DNA from: Allonocardiopsis opalescens
Lineage (GTDB): Bacteria > Actinomycetota > Actinomycetes > Streptosporangiales > Streptosporangiaceae
Direction: 5' to 3'
DNA length: 64,000 nt
NCBI RefSeq assembly: GCF_003002095.1
Contig: NZ_PVZC01000004.1
Span: 434,001 to 498,000, forward strand
The position numbers and the translations under genes are program-made. This document shows, in pieces, positions 5,809-59,830 of this stretch. The notes below the pieces were generated by a model that saw only the letters and a program-made list of their open reading frames with translations, had not been told where the DNA came from and made no database searches. Position 1 is the first letter of the stretch, and the number at the start of each line of letters is the position of its first letter.

Positions 5809-6930
5809 CTAACGCAGACTGCGGAAGAAGCCGCGGATGTCGTCCACCAGCACCTCGGGCACCTCGTGCGCGGCGAAGTGGCCGCCCACGTCGTAGACGT
5901 TCCAGGACCGGATGTCGCGGTGGTCGCGCTCGGCGAAGGGCCGGATGGACTGGAAGTCATTGGCGAAGTTCGCCAGCCCCAGCGGCACCGTCGTCGGCTC
6001 CGCGGGGTGCTCGGCGTGCGCGTCCTCGTAGTACAGCCGCGCCGAGGACGCCGAGGTGTTGGTGAGCCAGTAGATCATCACGTTGGTCAGCACGTAGTCC
6101 AGGCTCAGTGTCTCGCCGAGCAGCTGGGCGTTCCAGGCGAGCTGCCCGACGGGGGAGTCGGCGAGCGCGTGGGCGAGGGTCTGCGGCGCCTGCGACTGGA
6201 GCCGGTCGTAGCCGCCCACGTTCTCGTAGAACCACTGGAGGAACTTCACCTTGGCCAGGTCCTCCTCGCCCAGCTTCTCCAGCTCGGCCGGGTCGCCGGA
6301 CGGGAAGGAGAACACCTGGGTGACGTGCACGCCGATGACGTGCTCGGGGTCGAACCGGCCCACCTCGGGGGAGATGAGCGAGCCGCCGTCGTTGCCGTGC
6401 GCGCCGTAGCGCCGGTAGCCCAGGCGGCGCATCAGCTCGGCCCAGGCGCGGGCGATCCGGTAGCGGTTCCAGCCCTTCTCGCCGGTCGGGCCGGAGTAGC
6501 CGAAGCCGGGGACGGACGGGATGACCAGGTGGAAGGCGTCGGCCGGGTCGCCGCCGTGGGCGCGCGGGTCGCTGAGCGGGCCGATCACGTCCAGGTACTC
6601 GGCGACCGTGGTGGGCCAGCCGTGCGTGAGCACCAGCGGCACCGCGTCGGGCTCGGGGGAGCGGACGTGCAGGAAGTGCACGTTCTGGCCGTCGATCTCG
6701 GTGGTGAACTGCGGGTACGCGTTCAGCCGCGCTTCGGCGGCCCGCCAGTCGAAGCCGTTCTTCCAGTGGTCCAGCAGCCGGTGCACGTACTCCAGGGAGA
6801 CCCCGTACTCGGCGCCGACACCCGGCAGCTCGCCGGTGTGCCGGGTGCGGTCCAGGCGGTCGCGCAGGTCGGCGAGTTCGGCCTCGGAGGTCTCGATGCG
6901 GAAGGGACGGATGTCGTCGTTGTTCGTCAT
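5809..6930 (-). CDS. Epoxide hydrolase (copy 1)
   Basis: A 373-residue microsomal-type epoxide hydrolase. The N-terminal EHN domain spans about 1-110, with the DWRAAEA and [15 protein letters not shown] signatures. The alpha/beta hydrolase part has the oxyanion HGW at 103-105, the nucleophile Asp181 in HGNDGG, and the catalytic His in the VGGHFAAHE motif near the C-terminus. It would hydrate epoxides to diols through an alkyl-enzyme ester. The gene is divergent from a WYL regulator, and the same arrangement recurs at 51.3-53.6 kb. No Shine-Dalgarno is seen; the start is fixed by homology with the second copy. Confidence 0.88.
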   Translation of the reverse strand: MTNNDDIRPFRIETSEAELADLRDRLDRTRHTGELPGVGAEYGVSLEYVHRLLDHWKNGFDWRAAEARLNAYPQFTTEIDGQNVHFLHVRSPEPDAVPLVLTHGWPTTVAEYLDVIGPLSDPRAHGGDPADAFHLVIPSVPGFGYSGPTGEKGWNRYRIARAWAELMRRLGYRRYGAHGNDGGSLISPEVGRFDPEHVIGVHVTQVFSFPSGDPAELEKLGEEDLAKVKFLQWFYENVGGYDRLQSQAPQTLAHALADSPVGQLAWNAQLLGETLSLDYVLTNVMIYWLTNTSASSARLYYEDAHAEHPAEPTTVPLGLANFANDFQSIRPFAERDHRDIRSWNVYDVGGHFAAHEVPEVLVDDIRGFFRSLR

Positions 6931-50204: not shown

Positions 50205-51326
50205 CTACCCGGCGGTGCGCACCCGGACCTCGCGGCGGGCGGCGCGGGGCGCGGCGAACTCCAGCAGCCGGCCGCCCTCCTCGGCGATCGCGCTCTCATG
50301 GGCCGCGCAGTCGGCGTCGAAGAGTTCGACGGTGAGCGTGGCGGTGCCGGCGCTGGTGGCGACCGTCCAGGTTCCGGCCGCGAAGCCGTCGAGCAGCACG
50401 GTCGAGCGGACGATGCCGTTGACGGTGAACAGCCGGGCCCGCGCGGGCTCGGACATGATCCGGGAGCGGTCGGCATGGCCGAGCAGCACGGAGTCGAACT
50501 CACCGAGCAGCCGCACCGGCACCGGCGCCTCGGGGTCGGGCCGGGGCGCGTCGGGCAGGTCGAGCAGTTCGGCGCCGTCGGCGGCCTGGAAGCGCACCAG
50601 GCACCCGCTGAGGCGGTCGGCGACCTCGCGCAGCCTGGTCAGCCCCGACCAGGTCTGGACGTCGCGGATGGTGGCGGGGCCGAAGGCGGCGAGGTAGCGC
50701 AGCACCATCCGGTCGACCGAGGGCGCGGCCGCCATCGGCCGGCCCAGCCAGCTCTCCGCGGTGGTGTGCACGGCCGGGCCGCCGCGCCCCCACACGCCGC
50801 GGGGCGGCGGCTGCACCAGCGGGACCAGGGAGCGCACGGTCGCGGCGAGGGAGCCGGGGACGCCGCCGGGCCAGCGCTCGGCGAGCAGCCGGCCCAGCTC
50901 GTCGAAGGTCATCGGCCGCCGCTCGACCAGCGCGCGGCCCGCCTCGGCCAGCTCCGCGGGGTCGGCCGCGCCGATGCGCCGGCCGTGGTTGCCGCGCGCG
51001 CCGCGCTCCAGCACCGGCTGGAGCAGCGGCCGCAGTTCGAGGCAGTCGTCGGCGGTGACCAGGTGGATGGTGCCGCGCATCAGCGCGATCCGCACCGCGG
51101 AGCGGTCCAGCAGCAGCCGGCCGAGGTGGTCGGGGGCGAAGTCGGCCAGCCGGTTCCACAGCGCGTAGTAGGGCGGCAGCGGCGCCTGGGACTGGAGGCC
51201 GACCAGGTGCTCGACCGCCTGCGCGGCGGTCATGGCGGAGCGGCGGTCCAGCAGCTGGCGGGAGAGGAGCGCGCGGTTGAGGGCGCGGGGGCCCAGGACG
51301 GTGGAGGTGGCCGTCGTGCCGCTCAT
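50205..51326 (-). CDS. AlkZ-like (HTH_42) DNA glycosylase family protein
   Basis: A 373-residue protein of the winged-helix DNA-binding HTH_42/AlkZ family. It has three winged-helix-like modules, with ALNRALLSRQLLDRR at the start and the catalytic-type motif Gln45-Ser46-Gln47 in VGLQSQAP. AlkZ of azinomycin producers excises bulky alkylated bases and unhooks crosslinks, and QxQ is its active-site pattern. Other family marks are MRGTIHLVTADD and VLLDGFAAGTW. Its ATG overlaps the end of the upstream WYL regulator by 4 bases, so both are co-expressed. Activity on DNA is inferred. Confidence 0.8.
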   Translation of the reverse strand: MSGTTATSTVLGPRALNRALLSRQLLDRRSAMTAAQAVEHLVGLQSQAPLPPYYALWNRLADFAPDHLGRLLLDRSAVRIALMRGTIHLVTADDCLELRPLLQPVLERGARGNHGRRIGAADPAELAEAGRALVERRPMTFDELGRLLAERWPGGVPGSLAATVRSLVPLVQPPPRGVWGRGGPAVHTTAESWLGRPMAAAPSVDRMVLRYLAAFGPATIRDVQTWSGLTRLREVADRLSGCLVRFQAADGAELLDLPDAPRPDPEAPVPVRLLGEFDSVLLGHADRSRIMSEPARARLFTVNGIVRSTVLLDGFAAGTWTVATSAGTATLTVELFDADCAAHESAIAEEGGRLLEFAAPRAARREVRVRTAG

Positions 51327-53628: not shown

Positions 53629-55548
53629 TCAGCGGGCCGTGGCGGCGGCGTCGAGCTCGCGGCCGGCGCCCAGGGGCGCCTCGGGGGCGTCCTGGTCGAA
53701 CTGGGTGCGGTACAGCTCCTGGTAGCGGCCGCCCCTGGCCAGCAGTTCCTCGTGGGTCCCGCGCTCGACCACCCGGCCGGCCTCCACGACCAGGATGAGG
53801 TCGGCGGCCCGCACGGTGGACAGCCGGTGCGCGATGACGACTGCGGTGCGGCCGTCCAGGGCCTCGGCGAGCGCCGCCTGGACCGCCGCCTCGGAGGTGG
53901 AGTCGAGGTGGGCGGTCGCCTCGTCCAGGATGACCACCCGGGGCTGGGCCAGCAGCAGCCGGGCGATGGTCAGCCGCTGCCGCTCGCCGCCGGACAGCCG
54001 GTAGCCGCGTTCGCCGACGACGGTGTCGAGGCCGTCGGGCAGTGAGGCCACCAGTTCGTCCAGGCGCGCCCGGCGCAGCGCCGCCCACAGCTCCTCCTCG
54101 GTCGCCTCGGGTCTGCCGAGGGTGAGGTTGGCGCGGATGGACTCGTGGAAGAGGTGGCCGTCCTGGGTGACCATGCCCAGGGTGGCGCGGATGTCGTCGA
54201 AGGAGAGGTCGCGCACGTCGACGCCGGCCAGCCGCACCGAGCCGGAGTCGGCGTCGTAGAGGCGGGGGAGCAGCTGGGCCATGGTGGACTTGCCCGCCCC
54301 CGAGGAGCCGACCAGCGCGACCATCTGCCCGGGCTCGGCCCGGAAGGAGACGCCGTGCAGCACCTCGACCCCGGCGCGGTGGTCGAGCTTGGCGACCTCC
54401 TCCAGCGAGGCCAGCGAGACCTTGTCGGCCGAGGGGTAGCCGAAGTGGACGTCGTCGAACTCCACCGAGACGGGGCCCTCGGGCATCGGGACGGGGTGGT
54501 CCTTCTCGCGGATCAGCGGCGCGAGGTCGAGCACCTCGAAGACGCGCTCGAAGCTGACGAAGGCGCTCATGACCTCGACCCGGGCGCTGGCCAGCGCGGT
54601 CAGCGGGGCGTACAGGCGGGTGAGCAGCATGGCGAGCGCGACGACGTCGCCGGGGTTGAGCTGCCCGACCAGCGCGTAGAAGCCGCCGAGGCCGTAGACC
54701 AGCGCGAGGGCGAGCGCGGAGACGAGGGTCAGCGCGGTCATGAAGATCCACTGGAGCATGGCGGTGCGCACGCCGATGTCGCGCACCCGGCCCGCGCGCG
54801 CCGCGAACTCGGCGGACTCGTGGGAGGGGCGGCCGAACAGCTTGACCAGGGTGGCGCCGGGCGCGGAGAAGCGCTCGGTCATCTGGGTGCTCATGGCGGC
54901 GTTGTGGGCGGCGGCCTCGCGCTCGAGGCGGGCCAGCCGGGCGCCCATCATCCGGGCGGGGAGCACGAACAGCGGCAGCAGGACGAGGGCGACCAGGGTG
55001 ACCTGCCAGGACAGCCCGATCATCACTGCGAAGGTCAGCGCCAGCATCACGGTGTTGCTGACCACGCCGGACAGGGTGTCGCTGAACGCGCGCTGCGCGC
55101 CGAGCACGTCGTTGTTGAGGCGGCTGACCAGCGCGCCGGTGCGAGTGCGGGTGAAGAAGGCGACCGGCATCCGCTGGACGTGGTCGTAGACGGTGGTGCG
55201 CAGGTCGAGGATCAGGCCCTCACCGATCTTTGCCGACATCCACCGGTTGGCGGTGCCGATCCCGGCCTCGGCCAGCGCGATGACGGCGATCAGGACGGCG
55301 ATCCCGATCACCACGCCGACGTCGGCCCTGGCCAGGATCGCGTCGACCACCCGGCCCGCCAGCACCGGGGTGGCGACCGCGAGCACGGCGATCAGCACGC
55401 TCAGCACCAGGAACCACAGCAGCCGGACGCGGTGCGGGCGGGCGAAGGCCGCGATCCGGCGCAGGGTGGCCCGTGAGAACGGGCGTTTGTCCTGCTGCGC
55501 GGTCGTCATGTGGTGCAGTGACATCCACGCGGTGGTCTCCATGTCCAT
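53629..55548 (-). CDS. ABC exporter half-transporter (fused permease-ATPase)
   Basis: A 639-residue ABCB-type exporter. Six transmembrane segments lie between about 40 and 330. The nucleotide-binding domain has Walker A VGSSGAGKST, the Q-loop MVTQDGHLFHESI, the signature LSGGERQRLTIARLL, Walker B VVILDEATAHLDS and the H-loop AHRLSTV. All catalytic motifs are intact, so it could work as a homodimer to export drugs or lipids. The ATG at 55548 follows GGAGAAG. A SoxR/MerR-type promoter lies upstream, as for the S. coelicolor SoxR-controlled ABC exporter. Confidence 0.92.
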   Translation of the reverse strand: MDMETTAWMSLHHMTTAQQDKRPFSRATLRRIAAFARPHRVRLLWFLVLSVLIAVLAVATPVLAGRVVDAILARADVGVVIGIAVLIAVIALAEAGIGTANRWMSAKIGEGLILDLRTTVYDHVQRMPVAFFTRTRTGALVSRLNNDVLGAQRAFSDTLSGVVSNTVMLALTFAVMIGLSWQVTLVALVLLPLFVLPARMMGARLARLEREAAAHNAAMSTQMTERFSAPGATLVKLFGRPSHESAEFAARAGRVRDIGVRTAMLQWIFMTALTLVSALALALVYGLGGFYALVGQLNPGDVVALAMLLTRLYAPLTALASARVEVMSAFVSFERVFEVLDLAPLIREKDHPVPMPEGPVSVEFDDVHFGYPSADKVSLASLEEVAKLDHRAGVEVLHGVSFRAEPGQMVALVGSSGAGKSTMAQLLPRLYDADSGSVRLAGVDVRDLSFDDIRATLGMVTQDGHLFHESIRANLTLGRPEATEEELWAALRRARLDELVASLPDGLDTVVGERGYRLSGGERQRLTIARLLLAQPRVVILDEATAHLDSTSEAAVQAALAEALDGRTAVVIAHRLSTVRAADLILVVEAGRVVERGTHEELLARGGRYQELYRTQFDQDAPEAPLGAGRELDAAATAR

Positions 55549-55607: not shown

Positions 55608-55638
55608 ACCGTACGACCTCAACTATGGTTGAGGTCAA
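55608..55638 (-). promoter_or_regulatory. SoxR/MerR-type promoter of the ABC exporter
   Basis: On the minus strand TTGACC (55638-55633) and TACGGT (55613-55608) are separated by 19 nt, the long spacer typical of MerR-family activation. Inside is the perfect palindrome ACCTCAAC-TATG-GTTGAGGT (55616-55635), close to the actinobacterial SoxR box. The same CTCAA-N6-TTGAG core is at 58801-58816. Confidence 0.75.
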
Positions 55639-55832
55639 CTGCGCGGCCGGGGATCCGATCGCCGGACCGGCCGCTACGGCCAGCATGGCGCCCGGGTATG
55701 ACAGCGGCGCTCCCGGTCGGTTGCGGGGCGGCGAGCGGCTGGACCGTCACGACTAGGACAGGATCCGACCGCATTGCCGCTTACCGTCGGGCGGGTACGC
55801 GACAGCGCCCCGAACAGCCGAGGAGCCCCTTC

Positions 55833-57053
55833 ATGCCCGCTACGCAGCTCGCCGCCCCGAACGTGCCTTCGCCCCGGCCGGAGGCGGCCGCGCACCGGCT
55901 GACCTGGGCCGACGTCAGCGCGCGGCGACTGGAGCGCGCCGGCCTCGCCGCGCCGCGCGGAGCGGGCGCGGCGGACGAGGCCGGCACCGTCGCGGCCATG
56001 TGCGGCGCGCACGCGCAGGTGCTGTCGGCGGGGGAGCTGTCGGTCGGCCTGCGCATGGCGGGCGGCACCAGGGACGGGGTGCGCGACGCGCTGTGGCGGC
56101 GGCGCGAGCTGGTCAAGACCTTCGGCCCGCGCGGCACCGTGCACCTGCTGCCCGTCCGCGAGCTGCCGATGTGGACCGGGGCGCTGGCCGCCGTCCCGGC
56201 GGGCGGCGCCGCCCTGGCCAAGGGCGCCCGGCTCACGCCCGAGCAGACCGAGCAGGTGGTCGACGCCATCGGCGCGGCGCTGCGCGAGGCCGAACTGACG
56301 GCGGAGGAACTGGACGAGGCGGTGGTCGCCGCGACCGGACCGTGGGCGGGCGACCCCGTCATGCCCGCGTTCCAGGGCTTCTGGCCGCGGTGGCGGCAGG
56401 CGCTGCACCTGGCCGCGCACCGGGGCGAGCTGTGCTTCGGCGCCAACCGCGGCCGGAAGGCCACCTACACCAGCCCGCGCCGGCTGGTGCCCGGCTTCGC
56501 GCCCGAGGCCGCCGCGCCCGCGCTGCGCGCACTGCTCCGCCGCTACCTGCACGCCTACGGCCCCGCCACCCCGCAGCACTTCGCCACCTGGCTGGCGGCG
56601 CCGCGCAGGTGGGCGGCCGAGCTGTTCGCGTCGATGGGGGAGGAGGTCGAACGGGTCCGGATCGCCGAGAGCGGCGCCGACGGGTGGGTGCTCGCGGGCG
56701 ACACCGAACCGGCGGCCGAAGCGCCGCGCGGCCTGCGGCTGCTGCCCTACTTCGACGCCTACACGGTCGCCGCCCAGCCCCGCGAACTGCTCTTCCCCGG
56801 CCGCGCCGCCGAACGGGCCCTGGCCGGCGGCCAGGCGGGGAACTTCCCCGTCGTCCTGGTCGACGGCACCGTGTCCGGAGTGTGGCACCTGCGCCGCTCC
56901 GGCCGCCGCTGCCGGATCACCGTCGAGCCCCTGAGGGCCCTCCGTCCCGCCGATGAGCGCGAACTCGCCGAGCAGGTCGAGCGCGTCGGCGCCTTCCTCG
57001 GCGAGCGCGCGGAATCGGCGATCGGGCCGATCAGCGTGGGACCGCACGCCTGA
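55833..57053 (+). CDS. AlkZ-like (HTH_42) winged-helix protein, variant active site
   Basis: A 406-residue HTH_42 family protein from a branch different from the first. Family blocks are LTWADVSARRLERAGL, the TVAAMCGAHAQVLSAGELS region, the RRRELVKTFGPRGTVHLLP motif and LPYFDAYTVA near the C-terminus. At the catalytic position it reads His60-Ala61-Gln62 where AlkZ has QxQ, so glycosylase activity may be altered. GAGGAG precedes the ATG. It is divergent from the SoxR-promoter ABC exporter and convergent with an MFS exporter. Confidence 0.78.
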   Translation: MPATQLAAPNVPSPRPEAAAHRLTWADVSARRLERAGLAAPRGAGAADEAGTVAAMCGAHAQVLSAGELSVGLRMAGGTRDGVRDALWRRRELVKTFGPRGTVHLLPVRELPMWTGALAAVPAGGAALAKGARLTPEQTEQVVDAIGAALREAELTAEELDEAVVAATGPWAGDPVMPAFQGFWPRWRQALHLAAHRGELCFGANRGRKATYTSPRRLVPGFAPEAAAPALRALLRRYLHAYGPATPQHFATWLAAPRRWAAELFASMGEEVERVRIAESGADGWVLAGDTEPAAEAPRGLRLLPYFDAYTVAAQPRELLFPGRAAERALAGGQAGNFPVVLVDGTVSGVWHLRRSGRRCRITVEPLRALRPADERELAEQVERVGAFLGERAESAIGPISVGPHA

Positions 57054-57118
57054 CGGGGGGCGACCGCGGCCGGGTGAGGCGCCGGGACGGCTCGACCTGG
57101 ACCTGAGGGTGAGGGCCG

Positions 57119-58474
57119 TCAGGCCCGCCCGTGCCGCCGGTGCGCCCACAGGGCCAGGGCGAGGCCCGCCGCCAGGCAGGCCGCCGCGACGGCGGCCAGA
57201 GCCGCAGGGGTGTCGGCCGCGCCGGTCAGGCCGAGGCCGAGACCGCCCGTCACCGTGACGGCCGTCTTGGTGAGCCCGGACGCCGCGCCGGCCCGCTCCG
57301 GGCGGACGACCGCCTGGGTCGCGGTGAGCGTCAGCGCGTTGGCCGCACCCAGCAGCCCGCCGCAGCAGACCGCCGCCGGCAGCAGGGCGCCCGGCGACCC
57401 GGCGGCCGGCACGGCCCACAGCGCGGCCGAGCCGCCGCACAGGCAGCCCGCCAGCACGCCGGGGGCCCACGCCGGCGGCACCCGTCCGGCCACCGGACCG
57501 GCCAGTGCCATGGCGGCGGCCGGGGCGAGGAAGGCGAGCCCGGCCTGGCCGGGCCCCAAATCCCAGTCCTCTTGCAGCGCGAGCGGAACGGCGAACAGGA
57601 ACACCACGGCCGCCGCGTTGGCGACCGACCCCGCCGCCGTGAGCGCCGCGAAGGGGCCCTCGCGCAGCAGGGCGAGATCCGGCGGACCGGACGCCGCCCG
57701 CCGCGCCGCGCCGAACACGAGCAGCAGCACGGCGGCGGCCGCCGGCACCGCGACCGCCGCGCCCGACAGCCGGCCCCAGGCCGGCGCCCCTTCCGCGTAG
57801 GCCGCGACCCAGCCCAGCGCCCCCGTCCCGGCCAGCAGCCCGAGCAGGCCGATCCGCCGGCGCCCGCCGACCCCGGATCCGGCGGACGGGTCCACGGCCG
57901 CTGCCGCCGCGCCGGGGCGCGAGCGGGCGGCGGTAAGGACGGCGAGGGCCGTCAGGGGCACGTTGAGCCAGAACACGCCGGGCCAGCCGAAGCCCTCGGT
58001 GACGGCGCCGCCGATGAAGGGCCCCGCGGCGGTGGCGGCGCCGCCGATGCCGAGCGCCCAGCCGGTGGCGCGCGAGCGCGCGCCGGGCGGGAACGCGGTG
58101 GTGAGCAGCGCGAGCCCGGCGGGCATGATGGCCGCCGCGCCCGCGCCCTGGGCGGCCCGGGCCGCCAGGAGGGCGGGCAGATCGGGCGCGAGTGCGCAGG
58201 CCGCTGAGGCGGCGCCGAACAGGGCGAGACCGGCGGTGAGCACGCGGTGGTGCCCGAGCCGGTCGCCCAGCCGCCCGGCGGGGATCATCAGTGTTCCGGC
58301 GGCCAGCAGGTAGACGCCGACCGCCCAGCCGATGCTCTCGGTGTCCGCGCCGAGATCGCCTGCCAGATCGGGCAGGGCCAGGTTCAGCGCGAACGCGTCC
58401 AGTTGCACGCAGAAGACTCCGAGCGCCACCGCGCCGAAGGCCGGCGCCCGTCGGGCGCGCCCCTGTCCTCGCAT
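57119..58474 (-). CDS. MFS drug exporter (DHA2-like)
   Basis: A 451-residue major facilitator transporter with about 13-14 hydrophobic segments. It opens FGAVALGVFCVQLDAFALNLALPDLAGDLG, the DHA2 motif with the acidic residue in TM1. Motif A is GRLGDRLGHHRVL, and motif C-like GIGGAATAAGPFIGGAV follows in TM5. The expected role is proton-driven efflux of a toxic compound. The ATG follows AAAGGACG. It is shorter than typical 14-helix DHA2 pumps but not truncated at a motif. Confidence 0.87.
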   Translation of the reverse strand: MRGQGRARRAPAFGAVALGVFCVQLDAFALNLALPDLAGDLGADTESIGWAVGVYLLAAGTLMIPAGRLGDRLGHHRVLTAGLALFGAASAACALAPDLPALLAARAAQGAGAAAIMPAGLALLTTAFPPGARSRATGWALGIGGAATAAGPFIGGAVTEGFGWPGVFWLNVPLTALAVLTAARSRPGAAAAAVDPSAGSGVGGRRRIGLLGLLAGTGALGWVAAYAEGAPAWGRLSGAAVAVPAAAAVLLLVFGAARRAASGPPDLALLREGPFAALTAAGSVANAAAVVFLFAVPLALQEDWDLGPGQAGLAFLAPAAAMALAGPVAGRVPPAWAPGVLAGCLCGGSAALWAVPAAGSPGALLPAAVCCGGLLGAANALTLTATQAVVRPERAGAASGLTKTAVTVTGGLGLGLTGAADTPAALAAVAAACLAAGLALALWAHRRHGRA

Positions 58475-58861
58475 GGTCCGTCCTTTCCGCCGCCGCACGG
58501 CGGCGCCGGCCGGCGCGCCCGGTGCGTACGGGCGCGCGTCGTCGCGCAGGTCGGTGGGGGAGGCGGGCACCGGGACGGCGCCGCGGGACGGAGCCGGCGG
58601 CATGCGGTGCGGAGAACGGGCGGCCGGGCCGCGCTCGATCGGAAGGATCCCGGGTGCGGCGGGCAATCGGCTCGGCCGAACATCCGCGCGACGGGAGACG
58701 GCTCCAGCCTAGCCCCTCGCACCGGGCAACCGGCGCGCTCGGACGGACGACGGGGCGCCGTGACCCGGCTCACCTCGCCTGCCGCGTTCACGGCATTGAC
58801 CTCAAGTTTGGTTGAGCTTGCAGACTCGGCGGAGCGGATGACGAGTGGACGGGGAGCGGAC
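58475..58861. other. Divergent spacer without a gene
   Basis: These 387 bases lie between the MFS exporter and the oxidoreductase genes. No frame in it resembles a protein family. The right end carries the SoxR/MerR-type promoter listed separately; the promoter of the exporter must be toward the left but is not obvious. Confidence 0.4.
58796..58826 (+). promoter_or_regulatory. SoxR/MerR-type promoter of the oxidoreductase
   Basis: TTGACC (58796-58801) and CAGACT (58821-58826) are 19 nt apart. CTCAA-N6-TTGAG lies at 58801-58816, overlapping the -35. This is the same layout and sequence as at the ABC exporter promoter. The -10 is weak, which fits an activator-dependent promoter. Confidence 0.7.
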
Positions 58862-59830
58862 ATGAGAGCGATCCAGGTCGATGGGTTCGGCGGGCCGGAG
58901 GTGCTGCGGCCGGTCGAGCTGCCCGAGCCCGAGCCGGGTGCCGGACAGGTGCTGGTCGAGGTGGCGGCGGCCGACACGCTGTTCGTGGAGACGGTCATCC
59001 GCAGCGGACACGGCGGGGACGCCTTCCCGGTGCGGCCCCCGTTCGTGCCCGGGCACGGGGTGGCCGGGACGGTGGTCGCGGTCGGCGCCGGGGTGGCCAG
59101 GGGCTGGGTGGGGCGGCGCGTCGCGGCGCGCACCCCGGGCGGCGGCTACGCGCAGCGCGTCGCGGCCGACGTGGCGGCGCTGGTGCCGGTGCCCGACAGG
59201 CTCGGCCTGCCCGAGGCGGCCGCGCTGCTGCACGACGGCGCGACGGCGCTGGGCCTGTTCGACGCGGCGCGGGTCCGGGCGGCCGAGGAGGTGCTGGTGC
59301 TGCCGGCGGGGGGCGGCGCCGGTGTGCTGCTGGTGCAGCTGGCGCACGGCGCCGGGGCGCGGGTGACCGGGGCCGCGCGCGGCGCGGCCAAGCTGGAGCG
59401 GGTGCGCGGCCTGGGCGCCGACGCGGTGGCCGACTACTCGGAGGCGGGCTGGGACGACAAGCTCCGCGCGTCGACGGGCGGGCGAGGCTTCGACGTGGTC
59501 TTCGACGGCGTCGGCGGCGAGGCCGGCGCCGCGAGCCTCGCCCTGGCGGCCGACGGCGCCCGCTTCCTCGGCTACGGCATGCCCGGCGGCGGGTTCACCG
59601 CCGCCGACTCCGACGACGTGCGGCGCCGCGGCATCGAGGTGCACGGCATCGGGGTGGTGCAGTTCGACCCGGAGGACGCGGTCCGCTACATCGCCCGCGC
59701 ACTTGAGGCCGCGGCGGAGGGCCGGCTCCGCCCGGTGGTGGGCCGGACCTTCCCGCTGGACCGCGCCGCCGAGGCGCACGCCGCGATCGAGGGGCGCCAG
59801 GTCACCGGGAAGACCCTGCTGCTGGCCTGA
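58862..59830 (+). CDS. Zinc-type alcohol dehydrogenase/quinone oxidoreductase family protein
   Basis: A 322-residue medium-chain reductase. It starts MRAIQVDGFGGPEVLRPVELPEP, the usual quinone oxidoreductase opening. FVPGHGVAGTVVAVGAG is the first domain mark. The Rossmann motif is modified to LPAGGGAGVLLVQLAHGAGARV (AxGGxG), and FDVVFDGVGG follows. It lacks the structural-zinc cysteine cluster, as QOR/ CurA-like enzymes do. NADPH-dependent reduction of quinones or enones is expected. The SoxR/MerR-type promoter suggests induction by redox-cycling drugs. Confidence 0.88.
   Translation: MRAIQVDGFGGPEVLRPVELPEPEPGAGQVLVEVAAADTLFVETVIRSGHGGDAFPVRPPFVPGHGVAGTVVAVGAGVARGWVGRRVAARTPGGGYAQRVAADVAALVPVPDRLGLPEAAALLHDGATALGLFDAARVRAAEEVLVLPAGGGAGVLLVQLAHGAGARVTGAARGAAKLERVRGLGADAVADYSEAGWDDKLRASTGGRGFDVVFDGVGGEAGAASLALAADGARFLGYGMPGGGFTAADSDDVRRRGIEVHGIGVVQFDPEDAVRYIARALEAAAEGRLRPVVGRTFPLDRAAEAHAAIEGRQVTGKTLLLA

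Follow-up and report, generated by a model that had tools for sequence, protein, structure and literature searches.

Introduction

In Escherichia coli, the SoxR operator lies within a 19-bp promoter spacer, an arrangement shared by the promoters described here. Among the closest described counterparts of our system is that of Streptomyces coelicolor, whose SoxR targets are SCO7008/ecaA, SCO1909/ecaB, SCO1178/ecaC, SCO4266/ecaD, SCO2478 and SCO0320ext (PMC4146615). S. coelicolor SoxR binds promoters of such architecture in vitro (PMC4146615). Redox-active compounds oxidise it directly, which turns on a transporter and redox enzymes (PMC4146615, PMC5288332). S. coelicolor soxR is reported to be without autoregulation, a potential upstream box is given for roughly 13 percent of soxR genes in Streptomyces, and a transketolase soxbox is noted for S. 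avermitilis SAV_1623 only (PMC4146615).

For Streptosporangium-like genera, our literature search returned no paper on a SoxR regulon. Here we describe one predicted from sequence, starting from two promoters in a single window, meaning the whole 64-kb stretch analysed (G000:C4:434001-498000), which belongs to an assembly of 6.97 Mb in 22 contigs. Positions are those of the window unless a contig or locus is named.

Results

Two SoxR-type promoters in the window

The initial annotation had described two promoters, TTGACC-N19-TACGGT and TTGACC-N19-CAGACT, each enclosing CTCAA-N6-TTGAG, and both proved exact. The first lies on the minus strand (55608..55638), with its -35 TTGACC at 55638-55633 and, after a 19-bp spacer, its -10 TACGGT at 55613-55608. 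Its soxbox (55633-55618) reads CTCAACCATAGTTGAG, and the spacer between TTGACC and TACGGT (within 55638-55608) reads TCAACCATAGTTGAGGTCG. This promoter precedes an ABC exporter gene on the same strand (53629..55548; Pfam PF00664, ABC_membrane, and PF00005, ABC_tran), with 90 bp between the ATG at 55548 and the first -35 base. The second promoter lies on the plus strand (58796..58826), with its -35 TTGACC at 58796-58801 and, again after a 19-bp spacer, its -10 CAGACT at 58821-58826. Its soxbox (58801-58816) reads CTCAAGTTTGGTTGAG, and the spacer between TTGACC and CAGACT (within 58796-58826) reads TCAAGTTTGGTTGAGCTTG. Here, 66 bp separate the first -35 base from the ATG, at 58862, of a zinc-type (quinone) oxidoreductase gene (322 aa; 58862..59830, plus strand; Pfam ADH_N, ADH_zinc_N and ADH_zinc_N_2).

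Both promoters follow the pattern TTGACCTCAA-N6-TTGAG with a 19-bp spacer ahead of the -10. The wider dyad is exact in the exporter promoter (CCTCAA-N6-TTGAGG) and reads CCTCAA-N6-TTGAGC in the oxidoreductase promoter. CTCAA-N6-TTGAG is exact at 55618-55633 and 58801-58816 and, with one mismatch allowed, still occurs nowhere else in the 64 kb, while shuffles of the window gave a mean of 0.17 boxes and a maximum of 1.

Two genes lie between the promoters, an AlkZ-like glycosylase (55833-57053) and an MFS gene (57119-58474). Both were rejected as box-controlled genes, as the promoters point away from them. The glycosylase gene (PF06224, plus strand) is divergent from the box-bearing exporter gene, and an ORF at 50205-51326 (minus strand) appears, judged by eye only, to encode a second member of the AlkZ-like family. 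This family is linked with drug-crosslink repair.

The two boxes lie 3.2 kb apart, a closeness only slightly out of the ordinary (for any two of seven boxes, P is about 0.02). A conserved twin locus was rejected: across 80 orthologous exporter loci, we saw no AlkZ-like, MFS or oxidoreductase neighbour and no second exact promoter. Because such neighbours are absent from these loci, the twin arrangement is local and does not represent a conserved unit, and the closeness of the two window boxes is probably due to chance.

Sites across the genome

Exact CTCAA-N6-TTGAG occurs seven times in the whole genome, and the same pattern read backward, used as a control, does not occur. All seven exact sites carry TTGACC together with the A and T of the -10 after a 19-bp spacer. 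A search for the full promoter (TTGACC, box, 19-bp spacer, and A and T of the -10) recovered these seven sites without mismatch, along with three sites at one mismatch and two at two mismatches. One of the two-mismatch sites is an exact site read on its other strand. The five exact sites outside the window precede genes for an NmrA-type reductase (L011), an MFS exporter of 526 aa (L012), the N-terminal half of a transketolase (L013, with the soxbox promoter at 6750-6788; the C-terminal half follows, by eye), a luciferase-like protein (L010; a sub-threshold match) and an EutQ/cupin protein (L014). The one-mismatch sites precede genes for a SnoaL_4/DUF4440 protein, a second ADH-type oxidoreductase and a DSBA-like protein, and a two-mismatch site 605 bp to the left of the window precedes a luciferase-like monooxygenase. 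The regulon is therefore dispersed, as the initial annotation had proposed, with five further exact and three one-mismatch boxes before exporters, oxidoreductases and small-molecule-modifying enzymes.

These counts bear on whether the boxes could be chance look-alikes of soxboxes, either ordinary sigma-70-like promoters or palindromes. The window holds more copies of TTGACC by itself than expected (24 vs 11), so a lone hexamer carries little information. However, only about 0.0003 full -35/box sites of the form TTGACCTCAA-N6-TTGAG are expected in the genome from the window base composition (75% GC), against the seven found. This refutes a chance origin statistically, and the box upstream of the exporters is moreover conserved in many genera, leaving such an origin with next to no probability.

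Conservation at orthologous exporters

The conservation of the box was assessed at 80 orthologous exporters from named genomes of Streptosporangium, Actinomadura, Streptomyces, Micromonospora, Rhodococcus and others, of which 78 loci were examined and two were dropped for having less than 300 bp upstream. The best upstream box had 0, 1, 2, 3 or 4 mismatches in 32, 27, 12, 4 and 3 loci, so that 59/78 hold a box at one mismatch or fewer and 71/78 at two or fewer. In an equal stretch inside the gene, used as a control, the best match had 3, 4 or 5 mismatches in 2, 75 and 1 loci, with none at two or fewer. The promoter context is also kept: TTGACC stands ahead of the box in 65 of the 71 exporter loci, and TAnnnT follows a 19-bp spacer in 56 of the 71 but is absent at spacers of 15-18 and 20-24.

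The SoxR regulator

A profile search found no MerR domain within the window (C4:434001-498000), in agreement with the earlier proposal that the regulator is encoded elsewhere. The whole-genome search for a SoxR gene and more boxes gave, besides the seven exact boxes, a single SoxR locus on contig C11 (G000:C11:35945-36361; gene at L009 5919-6512), which scores 223.9 bits against the TIGR01950 cut-off of 116.9. The protein has the CX2CXCX5C [2Fe-2S] ligand motif (CIGCGCLSLGHC), it matches E. coli SoxR (2zhg/2zhh) best among PDB entries (phmmer, 2zhg_A, E 6.4e-49, residues 6-151), and its recognition segment VAVSALHFYE-KGLI is nearly identical to that of E. coli SoxR. With a 19-bp spacer at 7/7 exact sites and one SoxR present, the sequence supports the predicted MerR/SoxR control; the initial annotation had called this spacer the hallmark of MerR-family control.

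The soxR gene itself has an upstream box, GACCTGAATATTAGTTGAGGTC, with one mismatch and about 20 bp before the ATG (L009 5884-5899), and this box is outside the TTGACC-N19 activation register. Its presence suggests that SoxR may limit its own transcription. Within 250 bp upstream of 40 soxR genes from 40 genomes of the order, we found an exact box in 6 and a one-mismatch box in 10 (16/40 at one or fewer), whereas the control stretch gave 0/40 at one mismatch or fewer and a single two-mismatch case. At L144/L145, soxR and an NmrA-type gene are separated by a single perfect palindrome with TTGACC on both strands, an arrangement resembling the soxR-soxS divergon of E. coli.

Box loci in related genomes

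In a non-random draw, 80 box loci were chosen from among the roughly 150 matches listed in a scan of 297 genomes of the order, which has further matches beyond those listed. These contain 82 oriented boxes, of which 27 have TAnnnT at spacer 19, 2 have it at 24 and none at the remaining eight spacings. A downstream ORF was called for 78, and these fall into clusters named MFS (13), FMN reductase (9), ABC (7), transketolase (7), oxidoreductase (6), NmrA (6) and others, names that rest on the Pfam matches of one or a few members. The blastp cluster of the window oxidoreductase accounts for 6/78 box-downstream ORFs of other genomes.

The boxes could in principle be used by another MerR-family regulator, as PF00376, the MerR domain model, matches 47 times in this genome, with 45 matches above the cut-off. 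At one of the 80 chosen loci (L100, G143:C1:326500-333500), a non-SoxR MerR gene is divergent from a perfect soxbox, the sole such case among them. In contrast, a soxR-like gene with GCGCLS lies within about 3 kb of 18/80 chosen loci, where about 0.1 is expected, in a search that used SoxR as the query and would miss distant MerR proteins. At L100, the perfect soxbox faces a methyltransferase-like ORF, and the MerR protein there is a possible second user of the box.

SoxR was detected in 279 of the 297 genomes and the full box in 234. The box is present in 231/279 genomes with soxR, leaving 48 without an exact box, and in 3/18 without soxR (Fisher P 9e-9, pooled). This contrast comes mainly from genera with few or no boxes, and genera holding both kinds show little contrast (tabulated by eye); since the contrast depends on genus, the pooled test carries no independent weight. 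The three assemblies with boxes and no detected soxR (G005, G084 and G290; 470-540 contigs each) have only weak MerR matches, and the boxes of G084 face an ABC exporter and a transketolase. Either soxR falls in an assembly gap in these genomes or another factor acts there, and the latter would favour a different regulator. Against this, CCTCAA is a SoxR operator half-site, as in E. coli soxS. The gene set also agrees with the experimentally defined S. coelicolor SoxR regulon (PMC4146615). Taken together, we consider a regulator other than SoxR very improbable.

A cysteine tail on SoxR

SoxR of this genome has a long C-terminal tail with two CxxC motifs, CVPC-x8-CPDC. Among the best 30 SoxR matches, a sample biased to the closest relatives, at least two tail cysteines are found in 28/29 other proteins, and the tail is variable and Ala/Pro-rich. 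Cysteine makes up 67/769 tail residues (8.7%) in those 29 vs 0.4% in nine other proteins of the genome. Tail cysteines are absent from 15/18 other SoxR-like proteins adjoining boxes. One speculative reading, to which we give a low likelihood, is that the tail serves as a second thiol- or metal-based input, or as a handle for electron transfer or reduction, such that the promoters would integrate two redox signals. As part of the same doubtful proposal, SoxR here may belong to an actinobacterial class in which a fast-evolving Ala/Pro-rich C-terminal tail keeps a cysteine pair. Our literature search of titles and abstract openings found no mention of the cysteine tail, and we make no claim that it is unpublished.

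Discussion

Our analysis indicates, with a probability of roughly 0.93, that the two sites serve as operators for the SoxR encoded in this genome, the oxidised form of which would raise expression of the exporter, the oxidoreductase and at least five dispersed promoters. What the sequence itself shows is the sites and their geometry, the SoxR gene, and a regulon that is conserved. The remaining elements, namely binding to DNA, sensing by oxidation, distortion of the DNA and the role in physiology, are modelled on characterised SoxR systems. By that analogy, SoxR would be a [2Fe-2S] MerR-family activator that occupies the CCTCAA-N6-TTGAGG dyad in the over-long 19-bp spacer. A redox-active compound (a quinone, phenazine or similar) would oxidise the SoxR cluster, and the oxidised protein would distort the DNA and so make the -35 and -10 usable for RNA polymerase. 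The genes for the ABC exporter and the quinone oxidoreductase, together with at least five further dispersed promoters, would then be transcribed more strongly, and the compound would be exported or chemically modified.

The boxes may be SoxR operators of a regulon that defends against foreign xenobiotics and has no part in handling an endogenous pigment, an alternative that competes only with the physiological part of our explanation. No phenazine operon was seen: the sole PF03284 match is a stand-alone NTF2-like gene, and this candidate phenazine signal, located some 5 kb away from the one-mismatch box at C4:624229, was rejected on finding no phenazine operon around it by eye. The type II polyketide cyclase model PF04673 gave no match here but also none in any control genome, so this result is uninformative on absence. 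On the other hand, the search for endogenous pigments covered two marker families only, and SoxR of S. coelicolor and of P. aeruginosa responds to the organisms' own antibiotics (PMC4146615). We judge defence against foreign compounds and a role with endogenous pigments to be evenly balanced, with control by SoxR presumed under both.

The regulon described here adds a further actinobacterial genome, with seven to ten promoters listed, to the SoxR regulon defined by experiment in Streptomyces, and the exporter and its soxbox are kept across genera as different as Streptosporangium, Actinomadura, Streptomyces, Micromonospora and Rhodococcus. A soxbox promoter lies immediately 5′ of the split transketolase gene, and 7 box-downstream ORFs elsewhere share its cluster. 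The transketolase soxbox hints that central carbon flow is part of the SoxR response, and its place in the regulon suggests that carbon flow and NADPH supply are adjusted jointly with drug export. The cysteine tail and the degenerate box before soxR are less ordinary than the regulon itself, with the tail being the least ordinary, and the tail raises the question, open to direct testing, of how SoxR senses its signals in organisms that make antibiotics.

Compared with the SoxR-SoxS system of E. coli, SoxR here matches over the whole length of the E. coli protein, including the DNA-binding helix and the [2Fe-2S] ligands, but has a longer C-terminal tail with extra cysteines; in addition, we assume no SoxS relay, with SoxR acting directly on effector genes. 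P. aeruginosa, likened here by description, also has a small SoxR regulon, whose direct targets are transporters and a monooxygenase and which is phenazine-induced there (PMC4146615). The parallel to S. coelicolor drawn in the initial annotation, with an ABC exporter and oxidoreductases under SoxR, agrees with PMC4146615. Both systems have few dispersed targets with the same promoter architecture, and both include an ABC transporter, a quinone oxidoreductase and other oxidoreductases, matched by function and not by sequence orthology (PMC4146615). Unlike in S. coelicolor, the regulon here also includes an MFS exporter, a transketolase, a luciferase-like protein and a cupin, as well as one-mismatch sites before SnoaL-like, DSBA-like and second ADH genes. 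A one-mismatch box also precedes soxR here, whereas S. coelicolor soxR is described as not autoregulated (PMC4146615). Overall, this is an actinobacterial SoxR regulon resembling that of S. coelicolor, and it illustrates an established system well without being a new one.
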